A DNA stretch of 64,000 nucleotides, taken from NCBI RefSeq assembly GCF_025685655.1, contig NZ_JAGSYG010000001.1, forward strand, positions 868,001 through 932,000, written 5' to 3'. Numbering within the stretch: the stretch's first letter is position 1; every line of letters starts with the position of its first letter. The translations under genes were made by a program, and so were the position numbers. This stretch comes from Acidicapsa ligni. GTDB taxonomy: Bacteria > Acidobacteriota > Terriglobia > Terriglobales > Acidobacteriaceae. Shown in pieces: positions 10,075 through 37,351 of the stretch. Under the pieces are notes generated by a model. That model was not told the DNA's origin, searched no databases, and was given only the letters and a program-made list of their open reading frames with translations.

Positions 10075-10112
10075 TGTCATGCGGTGGTTAGTTAATTGTC
10101 ACTATTTTGTCT
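10075..10112 (-). promoter_or_regulatory. 11-bp-phased TGTCA repeat, site A
   Basis: Units begin at 10075, 10086, 10097 and 10108: TGTCA-N6-GGTTA-N6-TGTCA-N6-TGTCT on the + strand, hence TGACA towards the leftward cupredoxin gene, 131 bp from its start codon. The spacers resemble site B closely (TGCGGT versus TGCGTT; GTTAAT versus GTGAAT). A T/C-rich run follows to 10155. Confidence 0.6.
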
Positions 10113-10229
10113 TGCCTGTTTTGCCTTGTCTTTTTTGCCTTTTCTCTGAGGCGGAGCGAGCTTTCAATACAAAATATTTATCGACTGTCCCTACTCTCAA
10201 TGGAGCTAATTAAAGTACGAATAAATAGG

Positions 10230-10697
10230 TCAGCGGGTTGTTGAACTGCGACACGGTGCGACGCTGCCTGACACGCGTTGCCAGCTCTCTGTTTTGCCAA
10301 AAACAGGCAATCCCACATAACCACGCAGCATTAAAGTGTTATCCATAACAGTCATTGTGCCGCGATAAGTTTTACCGGACTTCGGATCGTATAGCGTGCC
10401 TTCGGAAGCGTGGGTTGCGTCGTTGAGTTGAAAGCGACTTCCGATTACAAGATCGCAGAGAGAGCGATTGCGTTGAGCTGCATCCGGATTGTGTACATCC
10501 ACAGTAGCGGGAGCCTTAGGGCTGAGCAGCACCAATCGCAGGCAGAGGCCACTTGCGCATTGTTCGACATGGATAACGGACCCAGTAGGCTCACGCCAAT
10601 TGCCCAGCAACGGCGATGTCTGCGCGCGGGAGGATGGAGGTAAGAGCATAACTGCAATTAAAAAGATGGCTGAGAATATTCGCATACGGAGATTCAT
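10230..10697 (-). CDS. DUF2147-family secreted protein
   Basis: A 155-residue exported protein: signal peptide to about SSRAQ, then the DUF2147 pattern GNWREPTGSVIHVEQC...LCLRLVLLS and the later GTLYDPKSGKTYRGTMTV. The family has a lipocalin-like beta barrel and no agreed biochemical role. It stands 17 bp behind the flavoprotein gene and is probably the last gene of the exopolysaccharide-polyketide series. Two Met codons near the start (MNLRM) make the exact start uncertain by four residues. Confidence 0.78.
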   Translation of the reverse strand: MNLRMRIFSAIFLIAVMLLPPSSRAQTSPLLGNWREPTGSVIHVEQCASGLCLRLVLLSPKAPATVDVHNPDAAQRNRSLCDLVIGSRFQLNDATHASEGTLYDPKSGKTYRGTMTVMDNTLMLRGYVGLPVFGKTESWQRVSGSVAPCRSSTTR

Positions 10698-10714
10698 ACC
10701 TGTCGATAGTGTTG

Positions 10715-11899
10715 TTAGTGGCTTGCGGCATGGATCACACTTCCAGGTAGCCGTGTTGCGGTGAAGATTTCAGTCAACGCGGAGGGCCATAGCCGAGCTA
10801 CCTGCGCTATCGCTGGCATTGCGATCATCAAACGGGAAAGCATGGTTGTGTAGTAAAGGCGGTGCTTGAATTCGCGGCGAGCTTCGGCATGAAACGCCGC
10901 TGAGGTCGAACCACTTAGATAGAGTTCAGCAGCGCGTTCAGCGGTATAGAGTGCGATGCCCATTCCATCGCCGCAAAAAGAAGGGATAACTGCAGCCTGA
11001 TCTCCGAGCCGCCAGGGAGAAGGTTCATCGATTGCCGGTCCAACGCAGTAACCATATGGAATCGCAGAGAGAGCAAGCGGACGGTCTAGCACCTGCCTTG
11101 CGCCACTCAGACGGCGAGCCAGGTGGGGAGAGTGATGCTGCATATGTTCGAGCAGTCGATCCCAGCGGCCATCGAGAGAACGCAACTTGTCACGCGTAAT
11201 CAGTGCGCAAAGATTCACCATGCCAGACTCTACCGGTTGCAGCCCTGCATACCCATCTGAATAGAGAATGAGCTCAACGTGCCCAGCTATTTTTGCCTGC
11301 TGTTCCGGCGAAAGAACGAAGTACATTTTCAGCGCCACCAGATTGTCCTGAGTGCCGCGTGCTTCGCGTTGCCAGCCGCGAAGATCGTGCTTGCCGGTTG
11401 CGAGAAATGCATCCTGACCATGAATGGAAATCGAAGAGTGAGAGGTGTCTTTGATCTGGGCGTGCCATAAACCCGATGCCACTCCGCTTCCATGATTCGT
11501 CCTGTACTGAGCACCATCTCTTGACAGATGCTCCACCGTATAGCCACGCAGCAGGCTCACTCCGGCATGTTGTGCGGATAGAAGAAGACTCTCATCCAGC
11601 GTTCGCCGGGTAAGTGAAAGTGCTGGAGATGGCAGCTCTACTTCAGTAATGACATCCCGCCCAGCTACGCGCATGGAGTGAATCGTTTGTGCGCCTAGTT
11701 CTTCAGGATGAATGCCGATGCGGCGAAGATACGGCAGGCTTTCAGGACTGAGAAATTCGCCACAAACCTTATGCTGCGCGCTCTTGCTCTTTTCAATAAG
11801 AACAGCATGGCGGCCAGCGCGAGCCAGCGCAATCGCAAGGGTGCATCCCGCTGGTCCGCCACCGACGATCAGTGCGTCATGACAAAGAGTCAGAATCAT
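10715..11899 (-). CDS. FAD-dependent oxidoreductase (geranylgeranyl reductase/hydroxylase type)
   Basis: A 394-residue flavoprotein with the N-terminal dinucleotide fold ALIVGGGPAGCTLAIALAR, the HKVCGEFLSPE segment seen in geranylgeranyl-reductase-like flavoproteins, and the second FAD motif RLGDQAAVIPSFCGDGMGIAL. Start ATG 11899 overlaps the methyltransferase stop as ATGA. With the adjacent type III polyketide synthase and methyltransferase it forms the three-gene set comparable to Streptomyces SrsA-B-C, where the flavoprotein hydroxylates the phenolic ring of an alkylresorcinol. The same order of steps is a reasonable but untested reading here. Confidence 0.85.
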   Translation of the reverse strand: MILTLCHDALIVGGGPAGCTLAIALARAGRHAVLIEKSKSAQHKVCGEFLSPESLPYLRRIGIHPEELGAQTIHSMRVAGRDVITEVELPSPALSLTRRTLDESLLLSAQHAGVSLLRGYTVEHLSRDGAQYRTNHGSGVASGLWHAQIKDTSHSSISIHGQDAFLATGKHDLRGWQREARGTQDNLVALKMYFVLSPEQQAKIAGHVELILYSDGYAGLQPVESGMVNLCALITRDKLRSLDGRWDRLLEHMQHHSPHLARRLSGARQVLDRPLALSAIPYGYCVGPAIDEPSPWRLGDQAAVIPSFCGDGMGIALYTAERAAELYLSGSTSAAFHAEARREFKHRLYYTTMLSRLMIAMPAIAQVARLWPSALTEIFTATRLPGSVIHAASH

Positions 11900-12660
11900 A
11901 GCTTGCTCCGCGAGACGGAAAGACGACCGGGCCAGTGTGTTTCGATGCGAATAGAGTTTAGCGATAATCCGGATGCGTACGCATACTGAGGCCACTCAGC
12001 CGGTCGAAGAGCACGGCAAATCGAGACGGGTCCATCGTGACGAACGAAGGGGTGCCAGCGCGCAACCCTGGCAAGCATCTCGAAGCCACGATATGCAGCC
12101 TTGCTTCTGCATAGATCAGAGATGAACCAGCCGCGCTGTGCCACGCTCTCCATCCACTGGAGAAATTGCATGATCTCTTCGTCAGACAGGTGATGTGTAA
12201 AGAGAGAGCTGATGACGAGATCGACTGGTTCCTTTGTGGTGTTAAACGAATCAGATTTGCCTGTGAACCAGCGGATGCGGCTATTCGCCGGCGTGAACTC
12301 CTGCGCGGCGCGAATAGCATTGGGATTCATATCAATGCCGGTAAGGCGAATTGAAGTTTTTTTACGGAGAGCCCAGCGCTCGATGTGACGCAACATATCG
12401 CCTCCGCCACAACCGACATCGACAATATGAAGAGGCCGGTTGTGGGGCGAGGGCTGCATGAACTGCTCCAACCACTGGAGCGTGGGACGATATGCAGACA
12501 AAACACGATTGACCTGCGCAAGATCGCGAAGGCAGTCGCGCAGATCTTCATACGAACAGGGCTCGTCCATCAGCTCAGAGAGATACGCACGTTGCGAGAA
12601 GTCGAGCGTGTACTCGGGAGGATGCTTCTTCATCGCGAGGGCATCCGTATTAAAGGACAT
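11896..12660 (-). CDS. class I SAM-dependent methyltransferase
   Basis: A 254-residue methyltransferase with the SAM-binding motif IVDVGCGGGDMLRHIE at about 79-94, an acidic ribose-binding position in LTGIDMNPNAI, and DLVISSLFTHHL as the motif IV region. It overlaps the polyketide synthase end by 11 bp and the flavoprotein start by 4 bp. It probably methylates the product of the neighbouring type III synthase (O- or C-methylation not decided). An alternative ATG at 12633 would shorten it by nine residues. Confidence 0.85.
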   Translation of the reverse strand: MSFNTDALAMKKHPPEYTLDFSQRAYLSELMDEPCSYEDLRDCLRDLAQVNRVLSAYRPTLQWLEQFMQPSPHNRPLHIVDVGCGGGDMLRHIERWALRKKTSIRLTGIDMNPNAIRAAQEFTPANSRIRWFTGKSDSFNTTKEPVDLVISSLFTHHLSDEEIMQFLQWMESVAQRGWFISDLCRSKAAYRGFEMLARVARWHPFVRHDGPVSICRALRPAEWPQYAYASGLSLNSIRIETHWPGRLSVSRSKL

Positions 12661-13711
12661 GGAAGTTCATCGTCTCTGCGGTGAGGCCAGGTCCAAAAGA
12701 CATGGCGCATCCACGTTGACCGGATTGAGCTGTACGCATGAGTTCTTCAAGCACAAACATAACCGTTGCCGAACTCATGTTGCCGAAGCGTCGCAGAATT
12801 GAACGCGATGCCGCCAGCGTGTCAGGCGCTAACTCCATGCTGGACTCTACAGCATCGAGAATCGAACGCCCACCTGGGTGGACTGCCCACAAATCAATAT
12901 TCTTTTCCGGATTAATTTCATCCACTTTCAAGCTGAGCGTTTTCCGTATTTCACCGGGAACTTTCCCTGACAAATCCATATCAAAGCCGCTATCGCCGAC
13001 GCGCCAGCGAATCAGATCGCGTGCCTCAGGAATTGTGTATGCTCTGAAGTTATCAAGTGCAAATCCCTGGTCGCTCGCGCGAATCAGACTTACAGCGCAG
13101 CCATCCCCGAAGAGCAGAAAGGCGAGAATTTTCTCAAGCTCCTGAGTCTTCTGAAAATGGAGAGAACAGAGTTCCAGGTTGATCATCAGCACGCTGGCAG
13201 TGGGTTCGGAGCGCACAATATGGCGGGCCAGCTTCAGGCCATTGATGGCCGCATAGCAGCCCATAAAGCCGACCATCGTGCGATCAGTTCCAGGATCGAG
13301 TTGCAGGTAGTCGATTGCAGCGAAGTCCAGTCCGGGCGCGAATAATCCGGTACAGCACGTAACAATGACATGACGAATACTCTGGCGCTCCTCCTCGTTG
13401 AGAGCGAGCCGATCAAGCGCGGAATGCAGCAACTGAGGCGAAAAAGTTTCAAATATCTCCATCCGTTTTGCTGTCGCGGGAAAGCTGCCTTCATGATAGA
13501 AGGCTTCGCCATTAAACGTTCCCTGGGTATTATTTCTTTCTGCCTTAACGAATGAGTAGCGATGATCGATGCCGGATCGCTTCGCCATGTGATTTAACAA
13601 AGCGCGCTTACGCTGATCGAGCAACATACTGGACGCATAATCGAGAAATCCAGCATGCACGTCGTGCGGCGGAGTCGCGGTTGCAATTCGACTAATACAG
13701 ACAGGCATCAT
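12650..13711 (-). CDS. type III polyketide synthase (chalcone/stilbene synthase-like)
   Basis: A 353-residue homodimer-type ketosynthase. The Cys-His-Asn triad is in place: Cys152 in VGFMGCYAAINGLK, His278 in LWAVHPGGRSI and Asn311 in RRFGNMSSATVMF; the C-terminal MSFGPGLTAE loop is also standard. Such enzymes extend a starter acyl-CoA with malonyl-CoA into alkylresorcinols, alkylpyrones or related phenolic lipids; the starter cannot be read from sequence. Start ATG 13711 overlaps the WecG-type glycosyltransferase stop as ATGA, so it is physically part of the exopolysaccharide transcript. Confidence 0.95.
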   Translation of the reverse strand: MMPVCISRIATATPPHDVHAGFLDYASSMLLDQRKRALLNHMAKRSGIDHRYSFVKAERNNTQGTFNGEAFYHEGSFPATAKRMEIFETFSPQLLHSALDRLALNEEERQSIRHVIVTCCTGLFAPGLDFAAIDYLQLDPGTDRTMVGFMGCYAAINGLKLARHIVRSEPTASVLMINLELCSLHFQKTQELEKILAFLLFGDGCAVSLIRASDQGFALDNFRAYTIPEARDLIRWRVGDSGFDMDLSGKVPGEIRKTLSLKVDEINPEKNIDLWAVHPGGRSILDAVESSMELAPDTLAASRSILRRFGNMSSATVMFVLEELMRTAQSGQRGCAMSFGPGLTAETMNFHVL

Positions 13712-14535
13712 GAGCGCACCTCAACATTACGTTGTGTTTCTGGTTTATGTATATCTGAGCGGAGCGGCTCTCGCCGCATTCTCAATATTTGTAATCCTAT
13801 GAGCAACACGAAGCGAGGATTGTTGCGAAGATAGCGCCACCACAATCGTTTGGGATCCTGTACTAATCTGTGCAGCCATTGTAGACCTGCCGACTTGACC
13901 CATTCAGCGCAGTCGCGAATACGTCCGGTGTGATAATCAAACGCCGCTCCTACTCCGAACATCAGCTTTGTTTCAAGCATCGGAAGGTAGCGTGCCATAA
14001 AGATTTCCTGCTTGGGGCAGCTTATGCCGACCCAGATGATATCAGGCTTCAGTTCCTTGATTGTTGAGACAAACTGCTTCTGTTCAGAATCGGAGAGTTC
14101 ACGAAAGGGCGGTGTGTATGTGCCGACGATCTTTACCCAGGGAAACCGTTCTTTCAATTTATCGCGCAGCTCTTCTGCTATCCCTTCATCTCCGCCATAG
14201 ATGAAGTGCGTGACGTGAGCGAACTCGCTGCGACGAAATATCTCAAGCATCAGATCTGGTCCAGTGACACGCTGCATCTTTGCATGCCCCTGCATGCGTC
14301 CGACCCACACTAAAGGCATGCCATCCGGGATAGTCATTTCGGATGCGGAGTAGACCTCCAGTAGTTGTGAGTTGCGCTGTGCTTCCATGACACCGTGTAC
14401 TCCAGCCACGCACACATAACCTTTGCGAGAGCCCTGCAATACAGTGGCGACACGTCCCAATGCTCCTTGCATATCGATAGCATCGACGTCTATTCCGAGG
14501 ACGTGGGCTACGGGGTGGCTACCTGTTGCTTTCAT
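13708..14535 (-). CDS. WecG/TagA/CpsF-family glycosyltransferase
   Basis: A 275-residue GT26 enzyme. Family signs: IPDGMPLVWVGRMQG, the Tyr/Gly-rich IYGGDEGIAEELRDKL, IIWVGISCPKQEIFMA and the closing AGLQWLHRLVQDPKRLWWRYL. Members add ManNAc, ManNAcA or glucose to an undecaprenyl-diphosphate-linked sugar on the inner face of the cytoplasmic membrane. Coupled to the upstream GT4 gene and the downstream polyketide synthase by ATGA overlaps. Confidence 0.92.
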   Translation of the reverse strand: MKATGSHPVAHVLGIDVDAIDMQGALGRVATVLQGSRKGYVCVAGVHGVMEAQRNSQLLEVYSASEMTIPDGMPLVWVGRMQGHAKMQRVTGPDLMLEIFRRSEFAHVTHFIYGGDEGIAEELRDKLKERFPWVKIVGTYTPPFRELSDSEQKQFVSTIKELKPDIIWVGISCPKQEIFMARYLPMLETKLMFGVGAAFDYHTGRIRDCAEWVKSAGLQWLHRLVQDPKRLWWRYLRNNPRFVLLIGLQILRMRREPLRSDIHKPETQRNVEVRS

Positions 14536-15749
14536 AGTGAATGCCTTTCTGATGCTGACGTCTGGATTGAAGCTGACAGCAGGCCAGACGTTTGATGGGC
14601 AGCGGATAAAGGCTGCAATACGTTTGTACGTTTACCTAGTAAGAGACTGGAATACAAAGCCAGATACATGGCGGCTGCTTGTTGCGGTTCGAGTCCAACA
14701 GGCGAGATTGCGGTACTACGCGGGGTCGTAATCGCCTTTTGTAATGCGGTCAAAAGCGATTCGCCGCTGTTGTCTTCCGGATCAAAAAATGTGCATCGCG
14801 TAGCCCCGATGGAACGAAACGCGGGAATATCTGAACAGACCACATTGCTTCCGGCAGTCAACGCCTCTGCCACCGGCAATCCAAATCCCTCAAGCAGCGA
14901 TGGAGCGATGACGAGGTCGCAATTGGCATAGAGAGATGCGAGACGTGCATCGGATATGCCACGTAGAAATAAGACTCGGCTATCGAGGTGGTACTGGGTG
15001 ATGATTCGATGAAGGCGCTGTGTTTCCGGTCCTTCTTTACCAACCACAACCAGCTTGGAGTCCGCCGGTATTACACCGCGATCGAGAGCAAGGTAAAACG
15101 ATCGCAACAGCAGAGGGAGATTCTTATTCGCACGATGTTGCGCTACGCACAGAAAGAACGGGCAGTCACGGACTGCACCTGGCAGAGAGGCGTAACGAAG
15201 CTCAGACGGAAGATAGATTGAGTTAGGTATGGTGACTGTCTTGCCCGAACTCCTCACAGGAAAGAGCTCATGCACGCGAGCACTTGTCTCTTCGGAGACG
15301 CAAGCGATCGCGTCTGCATTTTGCAGGCAGAACTTAAGCGCGGCGCGATTGAGCCACGCTTTTTTCCCGAAGTTCTGGGGAATATCGAATGGGTACAGAT
15401 CGTGAAGGCTCACAACGACAGGTGGGCCTCCTGCGGATTGCAGAACAGGCATCGGATACGCGAGATGAATAATATCTGCGCCATATTGCCGGGCTGCTGC
15501 GGGAAGTCCACGCAGGTACCAGAGATTGCGCGCCAAGGACCGATTGCTTATTGAGACGTGCCGAATCTCCAGCCTCTCATCTTTGAGGTCGAAGGCATTG
15601 CAGAAGTAATCCGATTGCCACTCTCCAGTGAGCATCGTTACTTTTTTCACAGCAGGGAGTGCGAGCATCCCGCGTGCAATATTTGCAGCGTGGCGGCATA
15701 CCCCGGCAGGAGATGTTGCAGATGATACGGAAGCAAGCAGTACATGCAT
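14532..15749 (-). CDS. GT4 glycosyltransferase
   Basis: A 405-residue GT-B enzyme. The C-terminal donor domain has FFLCVAQHRANKNLPLLL and the E-x7-E region PSLLEGFGLPVAEALTAG. It probably extends the lipid-linked repeat unit of the exopolysaccharide with a nucleotide-activated sugar. A 17-bp gap separates it from the upstream GT2 gene. Donor and linkage are unknown. Confidence 0.9.
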   Translation of the reverse strand: MHVLLASVSSATSPAGVCRHAANIARGMLALPAVKKVTMLTGEWQSDYFCNAFDLKDERLEIRHVSISNRSLARNLWYLRGLPAAARQYGADIIHLAYPMPVLQSAGGPPVVVSLHDLYPFDIPQNFGKKAWLNRAALKFCLQNADAIACVSEETSARVHELFPVRSSGKTVTIPNSIYLPSELRYASLPGAVRDCPFFLCVAQHRANKNLPLLLRSFYLALDRGVIPADSKLVVVGKEGPETQRLHRIITQYHLDSRVLFLRGISDARLASLYANCDLVIAPSLLEGFGLPVAEALTAGSNVVCSDIPAFRSIGATRCTFFDPEDNSGESLLTALQKAITTPRSTAISPVGLEPQQAAAMYLALYSSLLLGKRTNVLQPLSAAHQTSGLLSASIQTSASERHSL

Positions 15750-15766
15750 GGAACAACCTCTTGGTC

Positions 15767-16606
15767 TTAACGAATCGGGCGCTCGCGTCCGATGATGCTA
15801 TCGGGCAGGTAGTAGCCGCGGAGTAATTTTTCGGTGTAACGTGCGAATGGAGCGGCAATCTGCATTGCGTAAAGGCAAATGTCGCGTAGCGTCTTATTCT
15901 TGACGCGGGTTGCTACAGGCGAATACTTGTGCATTGTCATGCGCGTTTCAGCGAGCTGTCTCGCGCCTGTTGCGCAGGTCTTGCTTGTAGGGTGAAGACG
16001 AAAGTCAGCGAGCAATGCATGGATATGCTTGAAGCGATAACCCTTGTTCACAAGCCGGACAAAGAACTCGTAGTCCATTGCAAATTGCAGAGACTCGTCA
16101 AAGAAGTTGCCCTCGTCGAAAATCCTGCGACGAAAAAAAGTGGCCGTCGATGGAATCGGAGAGATGCGATGGTAAAAAAGCACGAGGCGGCTGAATTCAA
16201 TTTCACGACGAACGCGCAGATGCGTGCCATGCTCGTTCATGAAGGTGAAGTCGCCGTAGATCACATCGATATCCGGATTTTGCTCGAATATTTTCGCGAC
16301 GAGTTCCAGGCATCCAGGCCGGTAGCGATCGTCGGAGTTAAGCCAGCCGATGATATCTCCTGTAGCGAGGCGGATGCCTTTGTTCAAAGCCTGTGTGCAG
16401 CCGCCATCGCGCTCCGATACCCAGCTCATGTGCTGCCATTCAGGCCCGGTTTTAGCCAGCAGCAGTGCTACGGATCCGTCCGTGGAAACGCCATCAAGCA
16501 CAAGGTGTTCTACGTTCGCATAATTTTGTATGCGAATACTTTCGAGGGTTTCGCCGAGGTAGGCACACTGATTGAGCGAGGGAGTGATGATAGAAATTTT
16601 GTTCAT
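15767..16606 (-). CDS. GT2 glycosyltransferase
   Basis: A 279-residue GT-A enzyme: ISIITPSLNQCAYLGETLES at the N-terminus, VSERDGGCTQALNKGI, the DxD-like GWLNSDDRYRPG and the acceptor-side FDESLQFAMDYEFFVRL. It adds one sugar of the exopolysaccharide repeat at the cytoplasmic membrane. Overlaps the polymerase stop by 4 bp. Confidence 0.92.
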   Translation of the reverse strand: MNKISIITPSLNQCAYLGETLESIRIQNYANVEHLVLDGVSTDGSVALLLAKTGPEWQHMSWVSERDGGCTQALNKGIRLATGDIIGWLNSDDRYRPGCLELVAKIFEQNPDIDVIYGDFTFMNEHGTHLRVRREIEFSRLVLFYHRISPIPSTATFFRRRIFDEGNFFDESLQFAMDYEFFVRLVNKGYRFKHIHALLADFRLHPTSKTCATGARQLAETRMTMHKYSPVATRVKNKTLRDICLYAMQIAAPFARYTEKLLRGYYLPDSIIGRERPIR

Positions 16607-17853
16607 GATGTACCTGCCTTCGATGACGATTGCTCAAGCACGATTGCGAGTGCAGCAAAAAGCCATAGAGGGATGGAGAGTCCAAAGTTTACAGATTCGG
16701 TGAGTCCATGAATGATCGCGAACAGTATGACAACAGTGGCGAGCTTCCCATAAGGGCGCGATGTGTTCGATGCAGCGACCAGCATTTTTGCAGTAAATCG
16801 TTTCGCTGCAGAGATCAGCGAAAGGTAGATGCCGATGGTCACTACGACACCGAGCAGTCCATATTCAAAGAACTCCTGTAAGAGCTCATTGTGTGCATGC
16901 CAAGGCTCGAAGCTGCCGAACGCTGGGATGAGGGCGCGGAAAGAATAGAAGCCATGTCCGAGCAATGGCTTCTCAATCGCCATGAAGAAGGCTGTCGCCC
17001 AGATCGCCGTGCGGCCAGTAAGAGTCTCAGCCTGGTTAACGCCGCCGCTCGTGGTGTAGATCTCAAGATACGATTCCATCAGCGTTGCAAAAACCGCAAA
17101 AACGATAAGAGCTACTGCGGCGATCTGAATCTTTACGCGGCGACGGATGTGTTTGTCGCGCAGCAGATAGAATGACTCCGCGATGAAAAAGGCGATGATG
17201 GAAGTCTTGCTGATACTGCGCAGCATGGTGATGCCGAGTGCAAGGCAGGCCCATCTCCACATGCGTTCTTCAAGTGCTAGATGTTGCGCGAGGAAAAATG
17301 CAAGCGCGGAGTACATACCGATAATGTTGGGATGTAGAAAGTCGTAATCTCCGATTCGGAGATCGGGTAAGGTTGGTCCCATCCACGCTACGGCTCCTAC
17401 GAACAACATGCCCAGTACAAAACCTTTGAGAAGCGCATCGACTCCGACTGCTACGTTCGGCCGCTTCACGATCAACAGTACGGTCGCGACCTCCATCACC
17501 ATTCCGGTCCATAAGCCGCCGGCATCCATGATGGATTCAGCGCCTGTCCAAAGCAGACTAAGGCCGGACATCCCCAGGTAAGCCAGCAGCCACCACACAG
17601 TGCGGCCGGTGAAGAGAAAGCGTATGGAAAAGTTTTCGTCTCCCACGGTGTAAAGAATGGAGGCGGTGAGAATGAGAGCACTGCACGCGAGAGTTGTTAT
17701 GGAGCCCGCGCGCGGGTCCGATTGAAACCCCAGATAAATGAGAGCGAATCTGTAAGCGAAGAAGAACCCTGCGAGCAATTGCAGCGGCGTGCGAAAGGAG
17801 CTCTTGCTGCCCGCGTCCGCTTTGGCTTGAGGAATGTGGTTGGCCGATATCAT
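16603..17853 (-). CDS. O-antigen ligase/polymerase (Wzy/WaaL-type) membrane protein
   Basis: A 416-residue protein with about 10-12 hydrophobic helices and a large periplasmic loop holding LTGRTAIWATAFFMAIEKPLLGHGFYSF and the HAHNELLQEFFEYG motif of the O-antigen ligase family. With the flippase, Wzz and exporter it makes a Wzx/Wzy-dependent polysaccharide pathway, so polymerase is preferred over lipid-A ligase. Flanked by 4-bp overlaps on both sides. Confidence 0.88.
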   Translation of the reverse strand: MISANHIPQAKADAGSKSSFRTPLQLLAGFFFAYRFALIYLGFQSDPRAGSITTLACSALILTASILYTVGDENFSIRFLFTGRTVWWLLAYLGMSGLSLLWTGAESIMDAGGLWTGMVMEVATVLLIVKRPNVAVGVDALLKGFVLGMLFVGAVAWMGPTLPDLRIGDYDFLHPNIIGMYSALAFFLAQHLALEERMWRWACLALGITMLRSISKTSIIAFFIAESFYLLRDKHIRRRVKIQIAAVALIVFAVFATLMESYLEIYTTSGGVNQAETLTGRTAIWATAFFMAIEKPLLGHGFYSFRALIPAFGSFEPWHAHNELLQEFFEYGLLGVVVTIGIYLSLISAAKRFTAKMLVAASNTSRPYGKLATVVILFAIIHGLTESVNFGLSIPLWLFAALAIVLEQSSSKAGTS

Positions 17854-19184
17854 AGAGCCCCCTGCATGGAAGCCTGGGTCGGAACGCCCTGCGTGATATG
17901 CAGCGCCTTACGCAGAGGGATGTAGATGAGGCAGATGATTGGGCCATAAATGAGACGTCCTGCGGCAGCGCCCACGATGCCGAAGCGAGGAGCGAGAATT
18001 GCGATGGCCGCGAGCATGGCCGCTGCTCCTGCAACATTGACAAGGGCAAGCAGCTTGATACGGCCCATTGCCATGAGCATGTAGAAGCCTGTTACGTTCA
18101 GTCCCAGCAATGCGAATCCACACGCGGTTATGGAGAGAGCAACGTACGCGTGGGATGAGAAATCTTCACCCATCCAAAGACGGAGAATGTATCGGCTACC
18201 AAAGATCACTGGTGCGGCCAGGGCTGCAACCAATACGACGTTGACCGCAAAAGCAGTGGCAAACTTTTGCCGCATGGCAGAGGCGCTTAGCAATCCGAGC
18301 CGTGCAGCGAGATACGGAAAGAGCACCTGCAGGCCAGCAGCCACGATACCGTGAATAGGCAGTGCAGCCTGCACGCAGATGCTGTAGTAAGCGATCGCAT
18401 GCATGCCGAGAAGATAGCCGACTAGAAAGCGATCCGCTTGCCCAGTCAAAAGCCCGACTGCTCCCTGTATCCAACTGAAGGCGCCGAAGCCGAAGAGCTC
18501 TCTGACGGATGCGCGATTCAGACTTGGCAATAGGCTATGCATCGCAAGCCGGCGCCAGACTGCAAATGCCTGCAAGCTCGCGCTGATGATAGCAATCAGC
18601 AGAGTTGAAAGCATGATGGTGACGGTTCCTCGCCCAAAGGCGGCGATCGCAACCGCTGCACCTATGGTTGCAACCCGTGTTGCGATTGTGAATCGAGCCG
18701 CAACATCATAGCGCTCATAGGCGCGCTGTGCGCAGATGAAGACACTCTCCACCGCTTTTACCACGAGCAGGATGCAGCCGATGGCAAGTGCGCGTTGATA
18801 GCTGATCCGCAACGCTGCGCTTACATTGGGCAAATGCGAAACCAGGAAGGGGATCAATAGCCCTACCAGGATCGCAATCGTAGTGCCAAGAGCGAGGTTG
18901 ATTCCAAGGAGCGTGCGGATGATGCGTTCCACGCCAACATGATCGTTGCTGCCTCGGTACGCTGCGATAAACTTCAACGCGGCATCGCCAAAGCCTGCCG
19001 AGAGAAGAATGCCGCTGGTCACGGCTGCGCTTGCGAGTACCCAGATCGCATACTGTTCAACTCCAAGCCGATGGAGTAAGAACGGTGCGGAGCAAAGCAT
19101 AAGCGCAGGCAGCGAAACATAATCCGCAATGCCATAAGTGGCATTGGAGATATGTACGCTGCGCAGTTTGGCGGTGAAGCTCAT
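17850..19184 (-). CDS. polysaccharide flippase (Wzx-like)
   Basis: A 444-residue membrane protein with about 12-14 helices in the pattern of the polysaccharide transporter family (MATE-related): FGIVGAAAGRLIYGPI near the end and QADRFLVGYLLGMHAIAYYSI in the middle. It should turn the undecaprenyl-linked repeat unit to the periplasmic face. Coupled to Wzz and the polymerase through 4-bp overlaps. Confidence 0.88.
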   Translation of the reverse strand: MSFTAKLRSVHISNATYGIADYVSLPALMLCSAPFLLHRLGVEQYAIWVLASAAVTSGILLSAGFGDAALKFIAAYRGSNDHVGVERIIRTLLGINLALGTTIAILVGLLIPFLVSHLPNVSAALRISYQRALAIGCILLVVKAVESVFICAQRAYERYDVAARFTIATRVATIGAAVAIAAFGRGTVTIMLSTLLIAIISASLQAFAVWRRLAMHSLLPSLNRASVRELFGFGAFSWIQGAVGLLTGQADRFLVGYLLGMHAIAYYSICVQAALPIHGIVAAGLQVLFPYLAARLGLLSASAMRQKFATAFAVNVVLVAALAAPVIFGSRYILRLWMGEDFSSHAYVALSITACGFALLGLNVTGFYMLMAMGRIKLLALVNVAGAAAMLAAIAILAPRFGIVGAAAGRLIYGPIICLIYIPLRKALHITQGVPTQASMQGAL

Positions 19185-20491
19185 ACATGCGCCCCATCAG
19201 AGTGTGACGTGGCATTACGAGACTTGAATATACGGACTAGCTTTTTGAGATCATCGCTTTCATCCAACTCGTGCCAGTTCCGGAGATACAACATTACGAA
19301 TGACGCAAACAGGAGTACGATCAGCGTTCCCGCGAGCATGAAGATGAGGCGTGGAGGGAAGGACTTCTTCTCTGGCCAGCCTGCGGAATCAATGGTGCTG
19401 ACGGTCGGAATCTCTTTCGCTTCCTGAATGCGAGCCGTCTCGTACTCAGCCGAGAGGAGTTCGTAGACAGTCTCTTGAACTTTTACGCGGCGAAACAGGT
19501 TCGCATAGCGTACGCCGAGTTCCGGCAGACGCCTAAGAGGCGGGTAGAGTTCATCCTTCGAGAGTGCAAGGGGAGCGTTGGTGGTATCTGAGGAACCGCC
19601 GATCTTGCCGAGCTCACGCTGCAGAACACCGATGCGTTCGCTTGCTGCTTTCACGCGTACGTTGTTGTCCCCGTATATCTGCTTCAGGGATTCGAGCTCA
19701 GACTCGCCAAAGATCATCTGTGCCTGCAGCTTCGCTCCCGCGTCGACTGTGGCCCTGGTTTGTTCGCGGATGTCGATTGTCGAAGTGCTGCTTGAGAACT
19801 GGCTTAACTGTTCTTCGGCATCGTCGAGTTCCTTCAGAACTGCGGCTTGACGCTGTTCTACAAATTGCCGTTCGCGACGTGCAGACGAAGTGCTGACTCG
19901 CGCCAGGACTTTGTTTAATTCTTCAACATAGCCACGAGCGAGATCCTGCGCGCGTTGACGATCAGTATCCGTAACAACGATTGTGATGACGCCGCTCTTC
20001 TTACTCTCGGTGATTTGAGTGTTTGAGCTGAGCTTCTTCAGCGTGTCCTTCATGTACCTTTTTTTGTAGATTTGCTGCAGGTGAAAGCGTTCAGCAAGGG
20101 ATCCTGTAACTGTTCCGCTGCGCAGGAGATCGATGTACAGATCGCCGTTGCCCTTTGCTCCGAGCAGCCCGCTGGCGAGCATGCCCAGACTGCCTGCTCC
20201 ACCGCCGGCGCGTCCGGCGAGAGCGGCCAGTAACGCTGTTCCGCTACCTTGCTGCTCTGGAGGCATGATGTTTGTGGTCGACTTATAACGCTTCGGGATA
20301 GTGAACGCGATCACTGTGCTGAGAATGAATGCTACGATTCCGATCCGCAGCAGCGTCTTGCGACGCTGCCACAGATACAGAAGGTTCCTTGCCCACGCAG
20401 CGCTTGGGGGAGCGTCTGCCACTACGGGATCGTTCTTGTGCGAGATAAAGTTTTCCATGGCAGCTGTTATATTCCTGCGATCACGTTGCAT
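19181..20491 (-). CDS. Wzz-type chain-length/co-polymerase protein
   Basis: A 436-residue protein with two transmembrane helices (about 47-66 and 385-407) around a long periplasmic coiled-coil region; N-terminal Wzz domain (IPKRYKSTTNIMPPEQ) and the GNVR-type late segment near IPTVSTIDSAGWPEKKSFPPR. It sets polymer length and contacts the outer-membrane exporter. It has no fused tyrosine kinase and no separate kinase gene is nearby. Start 20491 versus ATG 20458 is undecided; neither has a clear ribosome-binding site. Confidence 0.88.
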   Translation of the reverse strand: MQRDRRNITAAMENFISHKNDPVVADAPPSAAWARNLLYLWQRRKTLLRIGIVAFILSTVIAFTIPKRYKSTTNIMPPEQQGSGTALLAALAGRAGGGAGSLGMLASGLLGAKGNGDLYIDLLRSGTVTGSLAERFHLQQIYKKRYMKDTLKKLSSNTQITESKKSGVITIVVTDTDRQRAQDLARGYVEELNKVLARVSTSSARRERQFVEQRQAAVLKELDDAEEQLSQFSSSTSTIDIREQTRATVDAGAKLQAQMIFGESELESLKQIYGDNNVRVKAASERIGVLQRELGKIGGSSDTTNAPLALSKDELYPPLRRLPELGVRYANLFRRVKVQETVYELLSAEYETARIQEAKEIPTVSTIDSAGWPEKKSFPPRLIFMLAGTLIVLLFASFVMLYLRNWHELDESDDLKKLVRIFKSRNATSHSDGAHV

Positions 20492-20533
20492 TGTTGTGCG
20501 GTGATGTTGAGCATTGTTGTAAGCATGGTGCGT

Positions 20534-23575: not shown

Positions 23576-23659
23576 CTGGATGACACCTGCGAAAGTTGGG
23601 AATTGCGACATAGGCTTTTACTCTTCGTCTTTCACCGTAAAGAACCGGATCAGTGGGGG

Positions 23660-23822: not shown

Positions 23823-23936
23823 ATTCAAAAGCCAGTAATCGCTATGGTTTAAGAGAAAATCGATTCGGATGCGAGGCTGTGTTGTCGACATCCATTGGAA
23901 TCGCCCTTGAATATTCAGGAGAAGAAGACGAGAAAT

Positions 23937-25839: not shown

Positions 25840-25896
25840 CGCATTGGAATTAAGTATTGGCACCCCGTTCACTCTATCCAGCCTGAGATGGAGGAT

Positions 25897-25934
25897 TGTC
25901 ATGTGCCTGTAAGCCGATTGTCATTGTATTGTTG
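25897..25934 (-). promoter_or_regulatory. 11-bp-phased TGTCA repeat, site D
   Basis: Units at 25897, 25908, 25919 and 25930: TGTCA-N6-TGTAA-N6-TGTCA-N6-TGTTG, nearly the layout of site B including the last unit. It faces the leftward nucleotidyltransferase gene, 58 bp from the start at 25839, and covers the upstream ATG at 25902. Confidence 0.62.
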
Positions 25935-25966: not shown

Positions 25967-25993
25967 TGACAATCAATTGACAAAGGCCAGACT
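25967..25993 (+). promoter_or_regulatory. 11-bp-phased TGACA repeat, site E
   Basis: TGACA at 25967 and 25978 and a degenerate AGACT at 25989, all in 11-bp phase and facing the rightward barrel gene at 26038. It stands back to back with site D. Confidence 0.5.
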
Positions 25994-26037
25994 ATCCGGA
26001 GACACATCGTGCGGAGAGTACCGCTACAGTCACTACT

Positions 26038-27099: not shown

Positions 27100-27101
27100 C
27101 C

Positions 27102-27422
27102 ATGAGCCATAAACATCTCTTCGCCTGTACTCTTGCTGTCGGAGCGCTCCTAACACCATTGGTTGCTGTCGTACACGCTCAGCCACAGTCCGCACCACAA
27201 GCTACTACTCACGCGGATAAGAAGAACACCGCAGCACCAAAGAAACCAGGACGCGTGCAGAGTGAAGGCGAACGCATCTTCGCACAGAACTGCTCTCGTT
27301 GCCACACGGCTCCGGATGGTTTCTCTCCCAGCATCTCGGGGACAGTTGTACGTCACATGCGTGTACGTGCATCGCTTAGCCAGCATGATGAGCAAGAGCT
27401 GCTTCGCTTCCTGAATCCATAA
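27102..27422 (+). CDS. small periplasmic c-type cytochrome
   Basis: A 106-residue monohaem cytochrome c: signal peptide ending near VVHAQ, a Lys/Pro/Ala linker, then haem site CSRCH (Cys64, Cys67, His68) and a short core ending in SQHDEQELLRFL. Met in VRHMRVR is the probable sixth ligand. The domain is shorter than usual class I forms. ATG 27102 is used instead of the earlier in-frame start because it begins the signal peptide. Followed by a clear terminator. Confidence 0.88.
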   Translation: MSHKHLFACTLAVGALLTPLVAVVHAQPQSAPQATTHADKKNTAAPKKPGRVQSEGERIFAQNCSRCHTAPDGFSPSISGTVVRHMRVRASLSQHDEQELLRFLNP

Positions 27423-31862: not shown

Positions 31863-34800
31863 TTAGAACACGTACTTCGCTGCGAACTGAATGATGCGCG
31901 GGTGCGGGCCGCCCTGTTCCCCTGAGATCTGACCAAACCCAGAGCTGGCCACGGGATTTGGAAGTGTTGCAACTCCATAGCCCAGGCTGGTGTTCGGGTT
32001 GCCGAACTGCGGCGTGTTTGTCACGTTAAAGAATTCAGCACGGAACCGGAAGCTGCTCCAGCTCTTTACTGGAAACACTCGTTCCACGGCCATATCGAGA
32101 TTGTGTTGCCCAGGGCCGCGCACGATGCCTACGCTGCTGTTGCCAAAATTCTGGTCTGCCAGGCTTGTTCCATTGGGTGCTTCGGGCGCACGCGTGAATG
32201 CGGTTGCGTCCAGGTAGCGGCCGCTTCCAACTACGCGCGAGAAGAGCGATCCGTGCGTTGAAGGACTACTTCCAGTAGCCTGTGCGCGATTGTTGAAGTT
32301 TCCATAGACAGAGCCAGCGTTGCCGTCAAAGATACTCAGTGCAGCGCCAGACTGTATTACTCCGATGCCTGAGAATTCCCAATTCGTAAGCACGTGACGC
32401 GGCAGCGTTGGAAGCGAAGTAAACTTCGGTGCTGTCCATGTGAAGTTTGCCACGATTCGTTGATCCCGATCGTCACCCGCAAGTCCGTATGAAGACTGCC
32501 GCAGATTGTGTTGATCATTGGTCGGGAGCTGGGTTTCGAAAGTATCGTTCCCGCCCTCTCCATTGAGCTCGTCCAGATTCTTCGACCAGACATAGCTTGC
32601 CTGAACCTGGAAGCCATGCGTCATCCGTTTCGTAACGCTGATCTGCAGAGAATTGTAGTTACCAACGAAGACCGATTCTGCGAAGAGCGATCCTTGAGGT
32701 ACGCCCTGGAATGGTTGCCGGGCAGCGACATTGTTGACCGAGTTTGTCGTCTCCCCGTTCACTGGACTTTCAGGACTGGCCAACAGCGACTGATTGAACT
32801 CGATCTGACCAGGCCGATGCACAGAACGCGTTCCTACGTAGCCCACTTCGAGGAGATAGTCACGACCAAGCGCATACTGCACATTCAGGTTGTACTCCTG
32901 GGTCCTGCCGTCCTTGATGTTCGGGTCAGATCCCTGAGTAAAGGGAAGAGGGGTAGCTGTACTGCGTGTTATGAAGATTGGATAACTGGAGTTAGGCAGC
33001 ACCAATGGGTCATACGGGCTCTGCAAGGTCGCTCGTCCGTTGGCAGCTCCCTGGATGATATTTCCCGTGGAATATGGAGGCTGCGATAATCCCGACTCCA
33101 CGATGCCAGCCGAATGCTGGTCATAGTAAATGCCATATCCGCCACGCAGTACCAGCACGGGCTTTTCTGTCATCTGCCACACAAAACCAAGCCGTGGCGA
33201 CACGTCCGCGTGTGGGGTCTTCCATAGTCCTGCATACGATGTCCGGACTATGCCCGCAGGTATCGTGCCCTCAAAGTTGGATGGCACCGTAAATCCGCTG
33301 AATGTTCCCGAGGCTGGCAGAAGCCCTTGCTGGGCAATGTTCGCGTCGAAGTTCGCCAGCCGTCCATTCGCCTCTGTCGGAGCGCCGAAAATCTCGTATC
33401 GCAGACCGGCATTGATTGTCAGACGCCGGGTCAGCTTGACGTCATCCTGTGCGAAGATCGCGAGATCCGAATAGCGTATATCCCTGCGGAAAATACCTCC
33501 ACCCGATTGCGTGGTCCCCACATTGCTGAATCCAAATGGACTGCCGTTCTGCGCCGCGCTCTGCCCCAGCAGAAAGTCGTCGAAGCTGGGAAGTTGCAGT
33601 AAACCGTCGGTTTCGTTCGGGGAGTTTATATCGGCCTGATGCCGTCTAAACTCGGCTCCGTAGCGCATGTTGTGACGGCCCTTGGTCAGTGCGATCGTGT
33701 CCTGGTAGATGAAGGAGTTTGTCACCTGCCACTCAGACGGTGTGCCTGCGTCGCCGATTGTAAGTCCAGCGACCATCAACCCCGGTGCGCTCAGCGTAGG
33801 TCCTACTGCGCCCGTTGGTGTGCCGATCCCAATTGCCTGTGCCGTGATCGGGCTCTGTACCCTCGATAGTCCATCGAACCGGGTGTAACCAAGCCGGGCG
33901 ATGTTCAGCAAGTTTGAAGTGAAGACATGCGTATCCGCCAGTACAAACATGGTGTTGCGGCTCAGATCGTTGGTGGGCCATCCCGGAACATTCGCTGCTC
34001 CGTTCGGCGAAAATGCCAGCGTCTCCGGTGCGCGTGCGTAAAAGAACCGCCCGGACAAAGTATTTTTCTGGTTCAGTATCTGGTCGAGATCAACCGTAAA
34101 CTGGTCTTCCCGATAATGTGCCGGAATCGCGTACGTCGATGCTCCCAAAGGCAACTGATCGGTAGGGTCACTGCCGCTGTTCGGGACAGCAGTCTGAGGA
34201 CTTGGTACCGCCAACTGACCATTCGGCAGCTTGGCGTTCAGGATAGCCAGCGCCGTGGGATTAATGTTTGATCCATCGCAAGCTACCTGAGTTCCGCCAG
34301 CCAATGTCAGATATCCTGTCGCCGGCTGGCCCATCGCATTCAGATGTCCAGCAGGGCAAAACTGCGCTCCAAGCCCAGCCGCCGAACGGTCAGCGGTCAG
34401 CAGTGGGTAGACATCATTCTGTTCATCACCCAGGCCATTCACCTCGGTCGATCCCTGATAGGCCCCAAAGAAGAACGTCCTGTCGTGCCTGATCGGTCCA
34501 CCGATGGACGCGCCAAACTGATTCTGCTTCAGATCCGCACGCGGCTGTCCATGCAGCTTAGAGAAGAAGTCATTTGCATTGAAGATGTTATTCCGCAGAA
34601 ATTCCCATGCGCTTCCGTGGAATTTATTCGTACCGCTCTTACTTACCAGGTCTACATTTGCGCCTGTACCACGTCCGTATGCAGCATCGAAGTTAGCCGT
34701 CTGTACCCGAAATTCTTCGATTGTGTCCGGTGCCGGAATGGCCGTACCCACGATAGAGCTTTCGGCATTGGATGCTGAGTTTTCGTATATGTTGTTGGCA

Positions 34801-35408
34801 TCGACGCCGTTGAATTGAATATTGTTATTCGTCGCAGTAGCACCGTTCGATGCTACATTCTGCGTTCCATTTCCAAGCGCTGTAGCGGTCGGCAGGTCGA
34901 CGACCACACCAGGAGCCAGTCCCAGGATCTGCGTATAATTTCGGCTCGACAGGGGCAATGCGCGAATCGCGGTTTCATCTACCAGGCCTCCGAGCGTCGA
35001 GCTTTCAAGCTTCGATACTTCAGCACTTCCGCCTGTAACCTGCACACTGGTACTAGCCGCTGCAATCGCCAGTTTTACGTTCAACGACGTCGTTGCGCTC
35101 ACTGTTACTTCAATCGAGTGGGAAGTGTTTCCTGAAAATCCTGTTGCGATAACTGTGACTGTATACATGCCCGGTGGCAGTAGAGGAACGCGAAATACTC
35201 CCTCAGAGGTGGTCGTCACCGATCGTGAGACATGAGTTGCCTCATTCACTGCAAGTATCTGAGCGTTCGACACCACACGGTCCGCAGGGTCGCTAACGAC
35301 GCCTGAAATCGCACCCGTACCTGGAGTTTGCCCAAAGGCCGTTCCGATAAATAAAAGGAAAATTGCTGCAACTGATGCGATATGGATTCGCAGTGAATCT
35401 GTTTTCAT
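31863..35408 (-). CDS. Oar-like TonB-dependent receptor with carboxypeptidase-regulatory domain
   Basis: A 1,181-residue outer-membrane receptor typical of Acidobacteriota. Signal peptide to about TAFGQ; CarboxypepD_reg domain (AISGVVSDPADRVVSNAQI) at ~25-110; plug domain with SSRNYTQILGLAPGVVVDLP and FNGVDANNIYENS; then a ~950-residue barrel ending in Phe (IIQFAAKYVF). Ligand unknown; the downstream kinase, MFS and GDPD genes suggest uptake of a phosphorylated or glycerol-containing compound (inference). ATG 35408 has AGAGG 8 bp upstream. Repeat site F lies 76 bp ahead. Confidence 0.9.
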   Translation of the reverse strand: MKTDSLRIHIASVAAIFLLFIGTAFGQTPGTGAISGVVSDPADRVVSNAQILAVNEATHVSRSVTTTSEGVFRVPLLPPGMYTVTVIATGFSGNTSHSIEVTVSATTSLNVKLAIAAASTSVQVTGGSAEVSKLESSTLGGLVDETAIRALPLSSRNYTQILGLAPGVVVDLPTATALGNGTQNVASNGATATNNNIQFNGVDANNIYENSASNAESSIVGTAIPAPDTIEEFRVQTANFDAAYGRGTGANVDLVSKSGTNKFHGSAWEFLRNNIFNANDFFSKLHGQPRADLKQNQFGASIGGPIRHDRTFFFGAYQGSTEVNGLGDEQNDVYPLLTADRSAAGLGAQFCPAGHLNAMGQPATGYLTLAGGTQVACDGSNINPTALAILNAKLPNGQLAVPSPQTAVPNSGSDPTDQLPLGASTYAIPAHYREDQFTVDLDQILNQKNTLSGRFFYARAPETLAFSPNGAANVPGWPTNDLSRNTMFVLADTHVFTSNLLNIARLGYTRFDGLSRVQSPITAQAIGIGTPTGAVGPTLSAPGLMVAGLTIGDAGTPSEWQVTNSFIYQDTIALTKGRHNMRYGAEFRRHQADINSPNETDGLLQLPSFDDFLLGQSAAQNGSPFGFSNVGTTQSGGGIFRRDIRYSDLAIFAQDDVKLTRRLTINAGLRYEIFGAPTEANGRLANFDANIAQQGLLPASGTFSGFTVPSNFEGTIPAGIVRTSYAGLWKTPHADVSPRLGFVWQMTEKPVLVLRGGYGIYYDQHSAGIVESGLSQPPYSTGNIIQGAANGRATLQSPYDPLVLPNSSYPIFITRSTATPLPFTQGSDPNIKDGRTQEYNLNVQYALGRDYLLEVGYVGTRSVHRPGQIEFNQSLLASPESPVNGETTNSVNNVAARQPFQGVPQGSLFAESVFVGNYNSLQISVTKRMTHGFQVQASYVWSKNLDELNGEGGNDTFETQLPTNDQHNLRQSSYGLAGDDRDQRIVANFTWTAPKFTSLPTLPRHVLTNWEFSGIGVIQSGAALSIFDGNAGSVYGNFNNRAQATGSSPSTHGSLFSRVVGSGRYLDATAFTRAPEAPNGTSLADQNFGNSSVGIVRGPGQHNLDMAVERVFPVKSWSSFRFRAEFFNVTNTPQFGNPNTSLGYGVATLPNPVASSGFGQISGEQGGPHPRIIQFAAKYVF

Positions 35409-35483
35409 ACACTTACCTCTCACAATGGCTTCCTTATGGTTCATCTTTCCTTGGCTGAGTATGAAGAGATGGATACTGCAAGT

Positions 35484-35510
35484 TGTTATTGATTTGTCAC
35501 TTCTTTGTCC
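35484..35510 (-). promoter_or_regulatory. 11-bp-phased TGTCA repeat, site F
   Basis: Units at 35484, 35495 and 35506: TGTTA-N6-TGTCA-N6-TGTCC, matching the last three units of site A including the TGTCC/TGTCT end. It sits at the very end of the ABC gene and faces the TonB receptor gene. Confidence 0.55.
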
Positions 35511-37281
35511 CGATGTATGCATGTTCCGGGGACAACTCTGAGACAGGCTCTTCGATCAGGCGGCCCTGTTGCAGCCTGAATACGCGCTGAGCGTAAGCTC
35601 GCCTATGAGCACGATGCGTTACAAGCAGCACCGCCATTCCAGAAGTACTCAGGCTCTCAAGAATTCGTGATTCGTTCTCTTCGTCCAGTGCCGAAGTCGC
35701 TTCATCGAGTAACAACAACCTGGAGCCGCGAAGGATAGCTCGAGCGAGCCCCAGCCTCTGCCGCTGGCCTCCACTAAATAAAGCTCCGTTGTCGCCTACA
35801 CCAGTATCCAGACCTTGAGGTTGTGCAGCGACGAACTCGTCCAGCCGAGCAATAGCTAACGCGCTCATTAACTCCGCATCGCTCTTTGCCGCCAACCCGA
35901 ACAGCAGGTTATTGCGTATCGAATCATCCAGCAGGGCGATGTCCTGAGGCACGTAGGCGATGTTCGCGCGATCGACTCGAACATCGCCTGAATTCGGTTG
36001 TAACACGCCTGCGACGATGTTTAGAAGGGAACTTTTTCCGCTCCCGGAAACGCCATGAAGCACAACCGTTTCGCCTCTGCGCATATATAAGGACACATTC
36101 CGAAGAATCGGAACATCCTCATGAAACGAAAAACTAACACGGTCGATTTCTATAACTAAGTCTTCATCCGGTAGCTGCATCGTGGGTGCAACCATGCGAT
36201 GCAGCATGCAATCGTTGAATTCATAAGCGACAACCTGAACATTCTTATAGGAGCTTTCCATCTGCCCGGCCATGAATGATATCTGGCTTATGAGAGGCAG
36301 CAGGCGTCGAGAGAGTACGAAATAAAAGACCAACAGGGATAGTAGCTGACGCGTATCTCCGTTGCGCAGTTGCACCGCGACAACAATGAAGAGAAAGAGC
36401 AGCACCACACCTTGATCGGCCAGAATCCTTGCAATCTGAGGAAGAAGGACGACCTGCAAATGCCCCGCAGCTACATCGCGCGCCTGCTTGCCGATCCGGT
36501 TCTGAAAGAAGCTTTCGATCCCGTAACTGCGTATTTCTTTCCCCGAAGAAAACATGTCCGCGAGACTTCTTTGCAAAACTCGCAGAGACTGTTCGCGCTC
36601 CGACACTGCCTTTTGTAGTTTCGTGCGAATGAAAAATCTGTGTATGACATAAAACAACAACACGGCAACGCCAAGGCCGCAAGCAGCCGCAGGGTTCTGA
36701 TAGACGAGCGCTACGGTCATGACCAGCACGACAACAATGGACGTTATCATCTCGATGACAAGATGATAGAAATTCGCTGCCTCTCGTGCCGAATACATCG
36801 CATGGTTCAGAAGTTCACTGCGATTGCGCTCTACAAACCGGCTCCACTGCATCTCGTTATAGCCAGTTGTCAGGCGTAGCAGGATTTCTGTATAGAGACG
36901 TTGAATATGGCTGACAACAGCGCGAGTTGAAGAGATATCCATCAGGGTTCGAAGAACGACCAGGGCGGATGTGGTCAGGGCCGCTGATAGCGTCGTCTTC
37001 GGTGTCCACCAGAGATGATGTGTCGGCGGAGCGCCTTGCAGCAATAAGAATAAGAAGTACATCGAGCCGGCAAGCAATAGATCGCAAATGCCAACCGCGA
37101 CTCTCGCTACAATTAACCACGCGAAGGTAAAGCGCTGTCGATTGCCGACGAGATGAAGCGCTGATCGAAGACTCTCGGCAACGCGAAAGGGCCGCTTTGC
37201 ACCAGCAGGAAGATCCGACAGATTCGTCTGCTTCAACGGATCTGCCGACTCGACTGGATGCCCTTGCGATTGTCTGCCCAT
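35497..37281 (-). CDS. ABC exporter, fused membrane and ATPase domains
   Basis: A 594-residue half-transporter: six-helix membrane domain (about 50-340) and an ATPase domain with Walker A GVSGSGKSS, signature FSGGQRQRLGLARA, Walker B LLLLDEATSALD and the switch histidine in VTHRAHR. The fold is that of lipid-, peptide- or oligosaccharide-linked exporters (MsbA, PglK, lasso-peptide D proteins). It lacks a C39 peptidase domain. Its own repeat site G lies 33 bp ahead; the downstream TonB receptor begins 88 bp past its stop. Confidence 0.9.
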   Translation of the reverse strand: MGRQSQGHPVESADPLKQTNLSDLPAGAKRPFRVAESLRSALHLVGNRQRFTFAWLIVARVAVGICDLLLAGSMYFLFLLLQGAPPTHHLWWTPKTTLSAALTTSALVVLRTLMDISSTRAVVSHIQRLYTEILLRLTTGYNEMQWSRFVERNRSELLNHAMYSAREAANFYHLVIEMITSIVVVLVMTVALVYQNPAAACGLGVAVLLFYVIHRFFIRTKLQKAVSEREQSLRVLQRSLADMFSSGKEIRSYGIESFFQNRIGKQARDVAAGHLQVVLLPQIARILADQGVVLLFLFIVVAVQLRNGDTRQLLSLLVFYFVLSRRLLPLISQISFMAGQMESSYKNVQVVAYEFNDCMLHRMVAPTMQLPDEDLVIEIDRVSFSFHEDVPILRNVSLYMRRGETVVLHGVSGSGKSSLLNIVAGVLQPNSGDVRVDRANIAYVPQDIALLDDSIRNNLLFGLAAKSDAELMSALAIARLDEFVAAQPQGLDTGVGDNGALFSGGQRQRLGLARAILRGSRLLLLDEATSALDEENESRILESLSTSGMAVLLVTHRAHRRAYAQRVFRLQQGRLIEEPVSELSPEHAYIGTKK

Positions 37282-37313
37282 AGAGCGAAGCTATCAATCA
37301 ACGGACCCGGTGT

Positions 37314-37351
37314 TGTCAGAGGTCCGTCGCTCAAATGTCAGCGAATTGTAA
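37314..37351 (-). promoter_or_regulatory. 11-bp-phased TGTCA repeat, site G
   Basis: Units at 37314, 37325, 37336 and 37347: TGTCA-N6-CGTCG-N6-TGTCA-N6-TGTAA, the same layout as sites B and D. It lies between the HisC-like gene and the ABC gene, 33 bp from the ABC start. Confidence 0.6.

Follow-up and report, generated by a model that had tools for sequence, protein, structure and literature searches.

Regulators of the OmpR/PhoB family bind direct repeats as tandem dimers (PMC4832192), and several described sites of this kind bear comparison with a set of TGTCA-type repeat arrays in 11-bp phase that lie upstream of genes in a 64,000-nucleotide stretch of the Acidicapsa ligni genome (positions 868001 to 932000 of contig C1 in a genome of 5.68 Mb; here, the window). 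The ArcA sites of Escherichia coli mostly comprise three to five direct repeats spaced 11 bp center to center; they resemble the arrays in the family of the regulator, the 11-bp direct repeats, and a redox-related regulon (PMC3798270) but are variable in number and position and serve mainly a repressor, whereas the arrays have a near-fixed four units and a near-fixed distance to the -10 element. The E. coli Pho box, bound by PhoB, is alike in its TGTCA core, 11-nt direct repeats, tandem head-to-tail binding, and sigma70 contact (PMC4415409) but differs in having two units rather than four, in regulator, regulon, and phylum, and in the phosphate genes that are absent here. PhoP of Mycobacterium tuberculosis recognizes a 7-bp motif with a strict 4-bp spacer, giving an 11-bp phase, and has a higher affinity for tri- and tetra-repeats than for a dimer site, although its motif (TCACAGC) differs and its regulon is unrelated (PMC4832192). 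MtrA (2gwr, the closest solved structure) and RpaB (the best NCBIfam model) have a domain architecture in common with the regulator encoded in the window, which scores far below their equivalog cutoffs and thus need not be an ortholog of either. The core sequence of ArcA sites differs from that of the TGTCA arrays.

Sequence comparison shows the TGTCA blocks to be genuine promoter elements that have been conserved. We assign a probability of roughly 0.83 to their being operators of one OmpR/PhoB-family two-component system, with its response regulator at 8219 to 9043 and its sensor kinase at 6355 to 8229, which would activate the target genes. We base this reading on computed properties, namely, the array and its phase, the fixed -10 element, conservation, co-occurrence with the kinase, and a conserved recognition helix; binding by the regulator, activation rather than repression, and dependence on phosphorylation are what it would predict. 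The type of site is already known, whereas the pairing of this regulator with this regulon, its spread across the class, and the near-fixed four-unit promoter appear to be new. No description of this regulon was found in the literature searched, whose coverage left out most subscription journals, and the main text of a Granulicella WH15 omics paper makes no link to it. Few regulons have been defined in Acidobacteriota, although the phylum ranks among the most abundant in soil.

Repeat arrays and their recurrence among relatives

All seven of the sites listed in the initial annotation were located, each of them upstream of a gene and reading TGACA toward it, and in four of the seven the first and third units are free of mismatches and separated by 22 bp. 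Four arrays lie on the minus strand with a -10 element. The first (10075 to 10112, with TAGGGT at 10049 to 10054; 10049 to 10112 overall) heads an operon for a cupredoxin, cytochrome c, response regulator, and kinase, and its footprint is kept in seven species. The four-unit array at 23660 to 23697 (TACGGT at 23634 to 23639; 23634 to 23697 overall) heads an SLBB/Wza-type polysaccharide export operon, that at 25897 to 25934 (TAGAGT at 25871 to 25876; 25871 to 25934 overall) precedes an NTP_transf_5 gene (24592 to 25902), and that at 37314 to 37351 (TAGCTT at 37288 to 37293; 37288 to 37351 overall) precedes an ABC transporter gene (35497 to 37281). On the plus strand, the site before the methyltransferase gene at 23895 to 24584 (23785 to 23848, with TATGGT at 23843 to 23848) has two good units at 23807 and 23818, as first described, with degenerate outer units that include a third one overlooked in that count. 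The array at 25967 to 26004 (TACAGT at 26025 to 26030; 25967 to 26030 overall), before the gene starting at 26038, had been read as three units but has four (TGACA, TGACA, AGACT, and AGACA), two of which are degenerate. The remaining site, of three units (35484 to 35510, minus strand), precedes an Oar/TonB-type receptor gene and is the least certain of the seven because it has no -10 element at 20 bp; an array was also found before Oar orthologs at three loci (L039, L050, and L167). The agreement of spacer bases proposed between sites holds only for A/T bases flanking the units, while the other spacer positions carry little information.

In the whole genome, the four-unit pattern with up to three mismatches gave six matches against one in the control, four of them inside the window, and the full promoter pattern gave nine against one, five of them inside. 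The idea that one regulator governs a local regulon is supported, though the regulon has to be drawn more broadly, there being three good sites outside the window; these sites elsewhere in the genome, like the fixed-distance -10 element TANNNT described below, had escaped the initial annotation. Counting as an array any four units that match at 16 or more of 20 letters, we obtained 7 in the window (control, 0 to 1) and 41 in 11-bp phase in 400 kb of DNA from relatives and some stretches of the same genome, as against none at phases of 9, 10, 12, or 13 bp and 0 to 1 with scrambled units. Because the 400-kb stretches were picked near cupredoxin orthologs or pattern matches, the count of 41 is enriched, and the argument rests on the controls run in the same DNA. 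Across 150 genomes of the family, the pattern recovered, when no more than one mismatch was allowed, 116 sites in 59 genomes (a few being one array counted in two registers) versus 4 for the reversed pattern, and across 200 genomes of the class, the full promoter pattern recovered 100 matches in 30 genomes versus 0 in the control. The class-wide matches lie in the family of A. ligni and two other families of the class (labeled f5 and f7). It had been proposed that the idea of a shared element should be given up if the pattern hit random DNA as often as promoters, or if orthologous upstream regions lost the 11-bp phase; the two genome sets argue against the former, and the phase is kept in the orthologs. 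The arrays are direct, not inverted, repeats of a 5- to 7-bp motif with a center-to-center spacing of ~11 bp, and so sharp and low-noise a signature (100 versus 0 in 200 genomes) can serve across the class to predict a two-component regulon, along with the geometry of its promoters and the genes that it holds.

The arrays are met again upstream of orthologs in genomes across Acidobacteriaceae and in some further families of the same class. By kinase similarity, the relatives of the genome are Granulicella, Edaphobacter, and other Acidobacteriaceae. In named relatives, the order promoter, cupredoxin, cytochrome c, (polymerase-like gene), regulator, kinase, and orthologs of the genes at 4746 and 4015 is mostly kept, with the promoter at the expected place; these loci hold 12 strong promoters in 171 kb, versus none in shuffled or reversed DNA. 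When the cupredoxin promoters of seven species are aligned, the invariant columns fall almost only within the units, and unit 2 is (T/G)AAC in all seven, so that this promoter retains a variant of its own. Orthologous promoters, as judged from this alignment, keep their own variants of the units. That the arrays are chance matches or a repeat element devoid of a regulatory role might be argued from an array-like match within coding sequence and from a match elsewhere in the genome (C7:197271) that overlaps the end of a gene. Given near-zero controls, the fixed -10 element, and conservation between orthologs that is limited to the unit columns, we regard the probability of this as negligible. 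The match within coding sequence, a four-unit-like array at 15935 to 15972 in a glycosyltransferase gene, has a weak or improper -10 element and is itself probably due to chance.

Geometry of the array promoters

Alignment of 139 arrays gave, on the gene strand, the consensus NNACA-A-N5-TGACA-A-N5-TGACR-N6-TGACA-N20-TANNNT. In 71 of the 139, TA stands at positions +21/22 past the last unit, compared with 2 to 7 arrays at most neighboring offsets, and 69 of these 71 also have T at +26. Since the arrays had been chosen on their units alone, the -10 element emerged independently. TANNNT is also present in 128 of 162 arrays obtained with a promoter rule that itself scores the -10 element, mostly at 20 bp (94 arrays) or 21 bp (29 arrays), and within the window it stands exactly 20 bp past the gene-proximal unit at six of the seven sites. 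If TANNNT is set as -12 to -7, the units center near -35, -46, -57, and -68, and the gene-proximal unit covers -37 to -33. A -35 hexamer at normal spacing was found neither at these six sites nor in the aligned arrays, in which the columns lying 17 bp before the -10 element read approximately ACAACT. An operator over the -35 region, a fixed distance to the -10 element, and the lack of a consensus -35 together correspond to a class II-like arrangement. We infer from this layout an activator-dependent, class II-like promoter of the sigma70 type.

Reading TGACA itself as a sigma70 -35 element was rejected, as the spacer would be 20 bp rather than 16 to 18 bp; a standard scan for promoters yielded more sites in shuffled sequences than in the real ones. 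A promoter for an extracytoplasmic function (ECF) sigma factor was likewise rejected, since helically phased repeated units do not fit a -35/-10 pair. The same regulator could instead act at the same sites as a repressor covering the -35 region, in that a unit over -37 to -33 could block the polymerase when bound. However, no -35 hexamer stands at the right spacing, such a promoter, with nothing bound to it, would be weak and leave little to repress, and the rigid 20-bp register to the -10 element suits contact between protein and polymerase; we therefore consider repression unlikely. Under the favored activation by a two-component system, the phosphorylated regulator would bind in tandem, its dimers arranged head to tail and usually numbering two, with the four TGACA half-sites that they occupy stacked along one face of the helix. 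The gene-proximal half-site would substitute for the missing -35 element, so that the regulator would recruit a sigma70-type RNA polymerase to the TANNNT 20 bp downstream. The near-fixed spacing of the four repeats and of the -10 element would make these promoters a natural model for polymerase recruitment by stacked OmpR-family dimers.

With gene starts called mechanically, the ATG of the gene at 26038 falls on the predicted +1/+2 and that of the ABC transporter gene on the predicted +1 (26025 to 26038 and 37281 to 37293 in the window), and many orthologs of the former likewise have the start codon at the predicted transcription start. Leaderless mRNAs are accordingly predicted for such genes.

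The candidate two-component system and its operon

The regulator operon lies on the minus strand and begins with a COX2-like cupredoxin (9582 to 10037), followed by a cytochrome c (9109 to 9645), the response regulator with receiver and winged-helix Trans_reg_C domains (8219 to 9043; start probably near 8893), and the sensor histidine kinase with a dCache_3-like sensor, HAMP, HisKA, and HATPase domains (6355 to 8229). Downstream lie a conserved kinase-adjacent protein with a signal peptide, a coiled coil, and a probable outer-membrane barrel (4746 to 6371; structure model at a predicted local distance difference test [pLDDT] score of 33 from 9 sequences, too poor to use) and a blue-copper (type 1) protein with invariant H108, C144, H147, and M150 (4015 to 4749). 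In relatives, an O-antigen-polymerase-like gene stands between the cytochrome and the regulator (L161 to L168, at ~7.7 to 9.1 kb); the window has none at that place and one at 16603 to 17853.

The regulator at 8.2 kb, already proposed in the initial annotation, emerges as the best candidate activator: its own operon bears a site, sites and kinase tend to occur together, and the recognition helix of the regulator is near invariant. Of the 150 genomes of the family, 81 have the kinase, as do 55 of the 59 that bear sites (Fisher P = 5 × 10−16, kinship ignored), and the four site-bearing genomes in which it was not found are 67 to 82% complete. A regulator with the helix core TRTVD...LRQKL adjoins the kinase at 20 of 20 kinase loci and 19 of 20 distant loci, the helix staying near invariant while overall identity falls to about 55%. 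At several distant loci, arrays adjoin the regulator gene and read away from it, and at one of these (L226), the genes divergent from the regulator encode a cupredoxin and a cytochrome c. An unlinked transcription factor binding the arrays, with the two-component system a co-inherited neighbor, would account for the many sites that lie far from the kinase locus, scattered in distant genomes, and for the kinase-bearing genomes devoid of strict sites. Yet almost all genomes with sites, distant ones included, have the kinase, the arrays adjoin the regulator gene in several distant genomes, the recognition helix is conserved, and 11-bp direct repeats are a hallmark of the OmpR/PhoB family, which together make an unlinked factor quite improbable.

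The arrays might also be Pho boxes bound by PhoB before genes responsive to phosphate starvation, given the CTGTCAT core and 11-nt repeat common to the E. coli Pho box, a nearby glycerophosphodiesterase gene, and TIGR02154 (PhoB), which is one of the models that match the regulator best. We rejected this as very improbable. A phoB-phoR-pstS-pstC-pstA-pstB-phoU locus elsewhere in the genome (region L158) is devoid of TGTCA arrays, and its PhoB is the nearest paralog of the regulator (37% identity) but has an unlike recognition helix; with 184.6 bits against a cutoff of 296.2, the regulator does not qualify as a PhoB equivalog; and the sites co-occur with the window kinase. Moreover, the repeats read TGACA toward the gene, opposite to the direction of the E. 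coli Pho box.

Several points weigh against regulation of the arrays by this two-component system. The co-occurrence statistic ignores shared ancestry, and 26 of the 81 kinase-bearing genomes lack a site matching the strict pattern, two of these (G173 and G174) having weaker arrays at the locus. The 35484 site departs from the -10 rule, the evidence is entirely that of sequence, and activation is preferred over repression only on promoter geometry.

With the protein at 4015 being a blue-copper protein, the regulator operon carries two copper proteins and a cytochrome, which makes a redox or copper signal plausible. The system would switch on its own operon together with blue-copper proteins, cytochromes c, outer-membrane receptors, transporters, and export-linked polysaccharide genes. 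One could go further and propose, tentatively and at well below even odds, that Acidobacteriota have here a circuit dedicated to redox or copper sensing, by which an extracellular surface for electron transfer or oxidation is built. In such a circuit, the two blue-copper proteins and the cytochromes in or near the regulator operon would belong to the path by which the signal reaches the kinase, while receptors, polysaccharide, and pairs of barrel and cytochrome would be co-deployed from the four-repeat promoter, partly on leaderless mRNAs.

Other genes of the window and the predicted wider regulon

The regulon is predicted to consist mainly of genes for secreted redox proteins, outer-membrane proteins, and polysaccharide and to be wider than the window. 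Several proteins that have no assigned role (the cupredoxins, the barrel-like protein at 26038, NTP_transf_5, the HprK-like kinase, and the TIGR03118 family) would come together in it as a single unit open to test. The polysaccharide operon (10230 to 23611, minus strand) begins with the SLBB/Poly_export protein (20534 to 23611) and runs down to 10230 with Wzz, Wzx, Wzy, glycosyltransferases, and a type III polyketide synthase (12650 to 13711); the presence of the last, a methyltransferase, and a FAD enzyme suggests that a phenolic lipid or modification may be made alongside the polymer. The remaining products are the NTP_transf_5 nucleotidyltransferase (minus strand; start probably below 25864); a secreted, probable beta-barrel protein (26038 to 27099, plus strand; structure model at a pLDDT of 35 from 3 sequences, too poor to use) followed by a single-heme cytochrome c (27045 to 27422); an Oar/TonB-dependent receptor-like outer-membrane protein (31863 to 35522, minus strand; start probably below 35484); and the ABC transporter, a fused permease/ATPase (minus strand).

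Outside the window, the three good sites precede genes for a secreted protein of the TIGR03118 family by sequence (C1:333049), a B12-radical-SAM protein clustered with HprK and NTP_transf_5 paralogs (C5:122902), and a TonB-dependent receptor (C7:101318). In distant relatives, 34 of 41 downstream products are secreted-like by a simple hydrophobicity rule, versus 47 of 123 control open reading frames, and they include TIGR03118, CHRD, kelch, TIG-domain, and CxxCH proteins. At four such loci (L075, L077, L078, and L131), the protein after the promoter has FARKYGL(R/P)CSACHE near its N terminus, a single heme motif followed by a long domain, and resembles fused cytochrome-porins. A Cyc2-like identity was suspected by sequence for those of L075 and L131 and is not claimed, as no family match was obtained in NCBIfam for L075 or in Pfam or NCBIfam for L131. 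TIGR03118-family secreted proteins stand repeatedly downstream of the array promoter across genera (L053, 10245 to 11489; L055, L058, and L126).

A lasso-peptide cluster, considered because of the HprK, NTP_transf_5, and ABC genes, was rejected, no asparagine-synthase gene being present among the window genes scanned. The region around the site at C5:122902 (C5:113000 to 132999) has HprK-like, NTP_transf_5, B12-radical-SAM, amidohydrolase-like, glycosyltransferase-like, and PhyH-like genes, among which one has an array promoter, and by this gene content it looks like a natural-product cluster.

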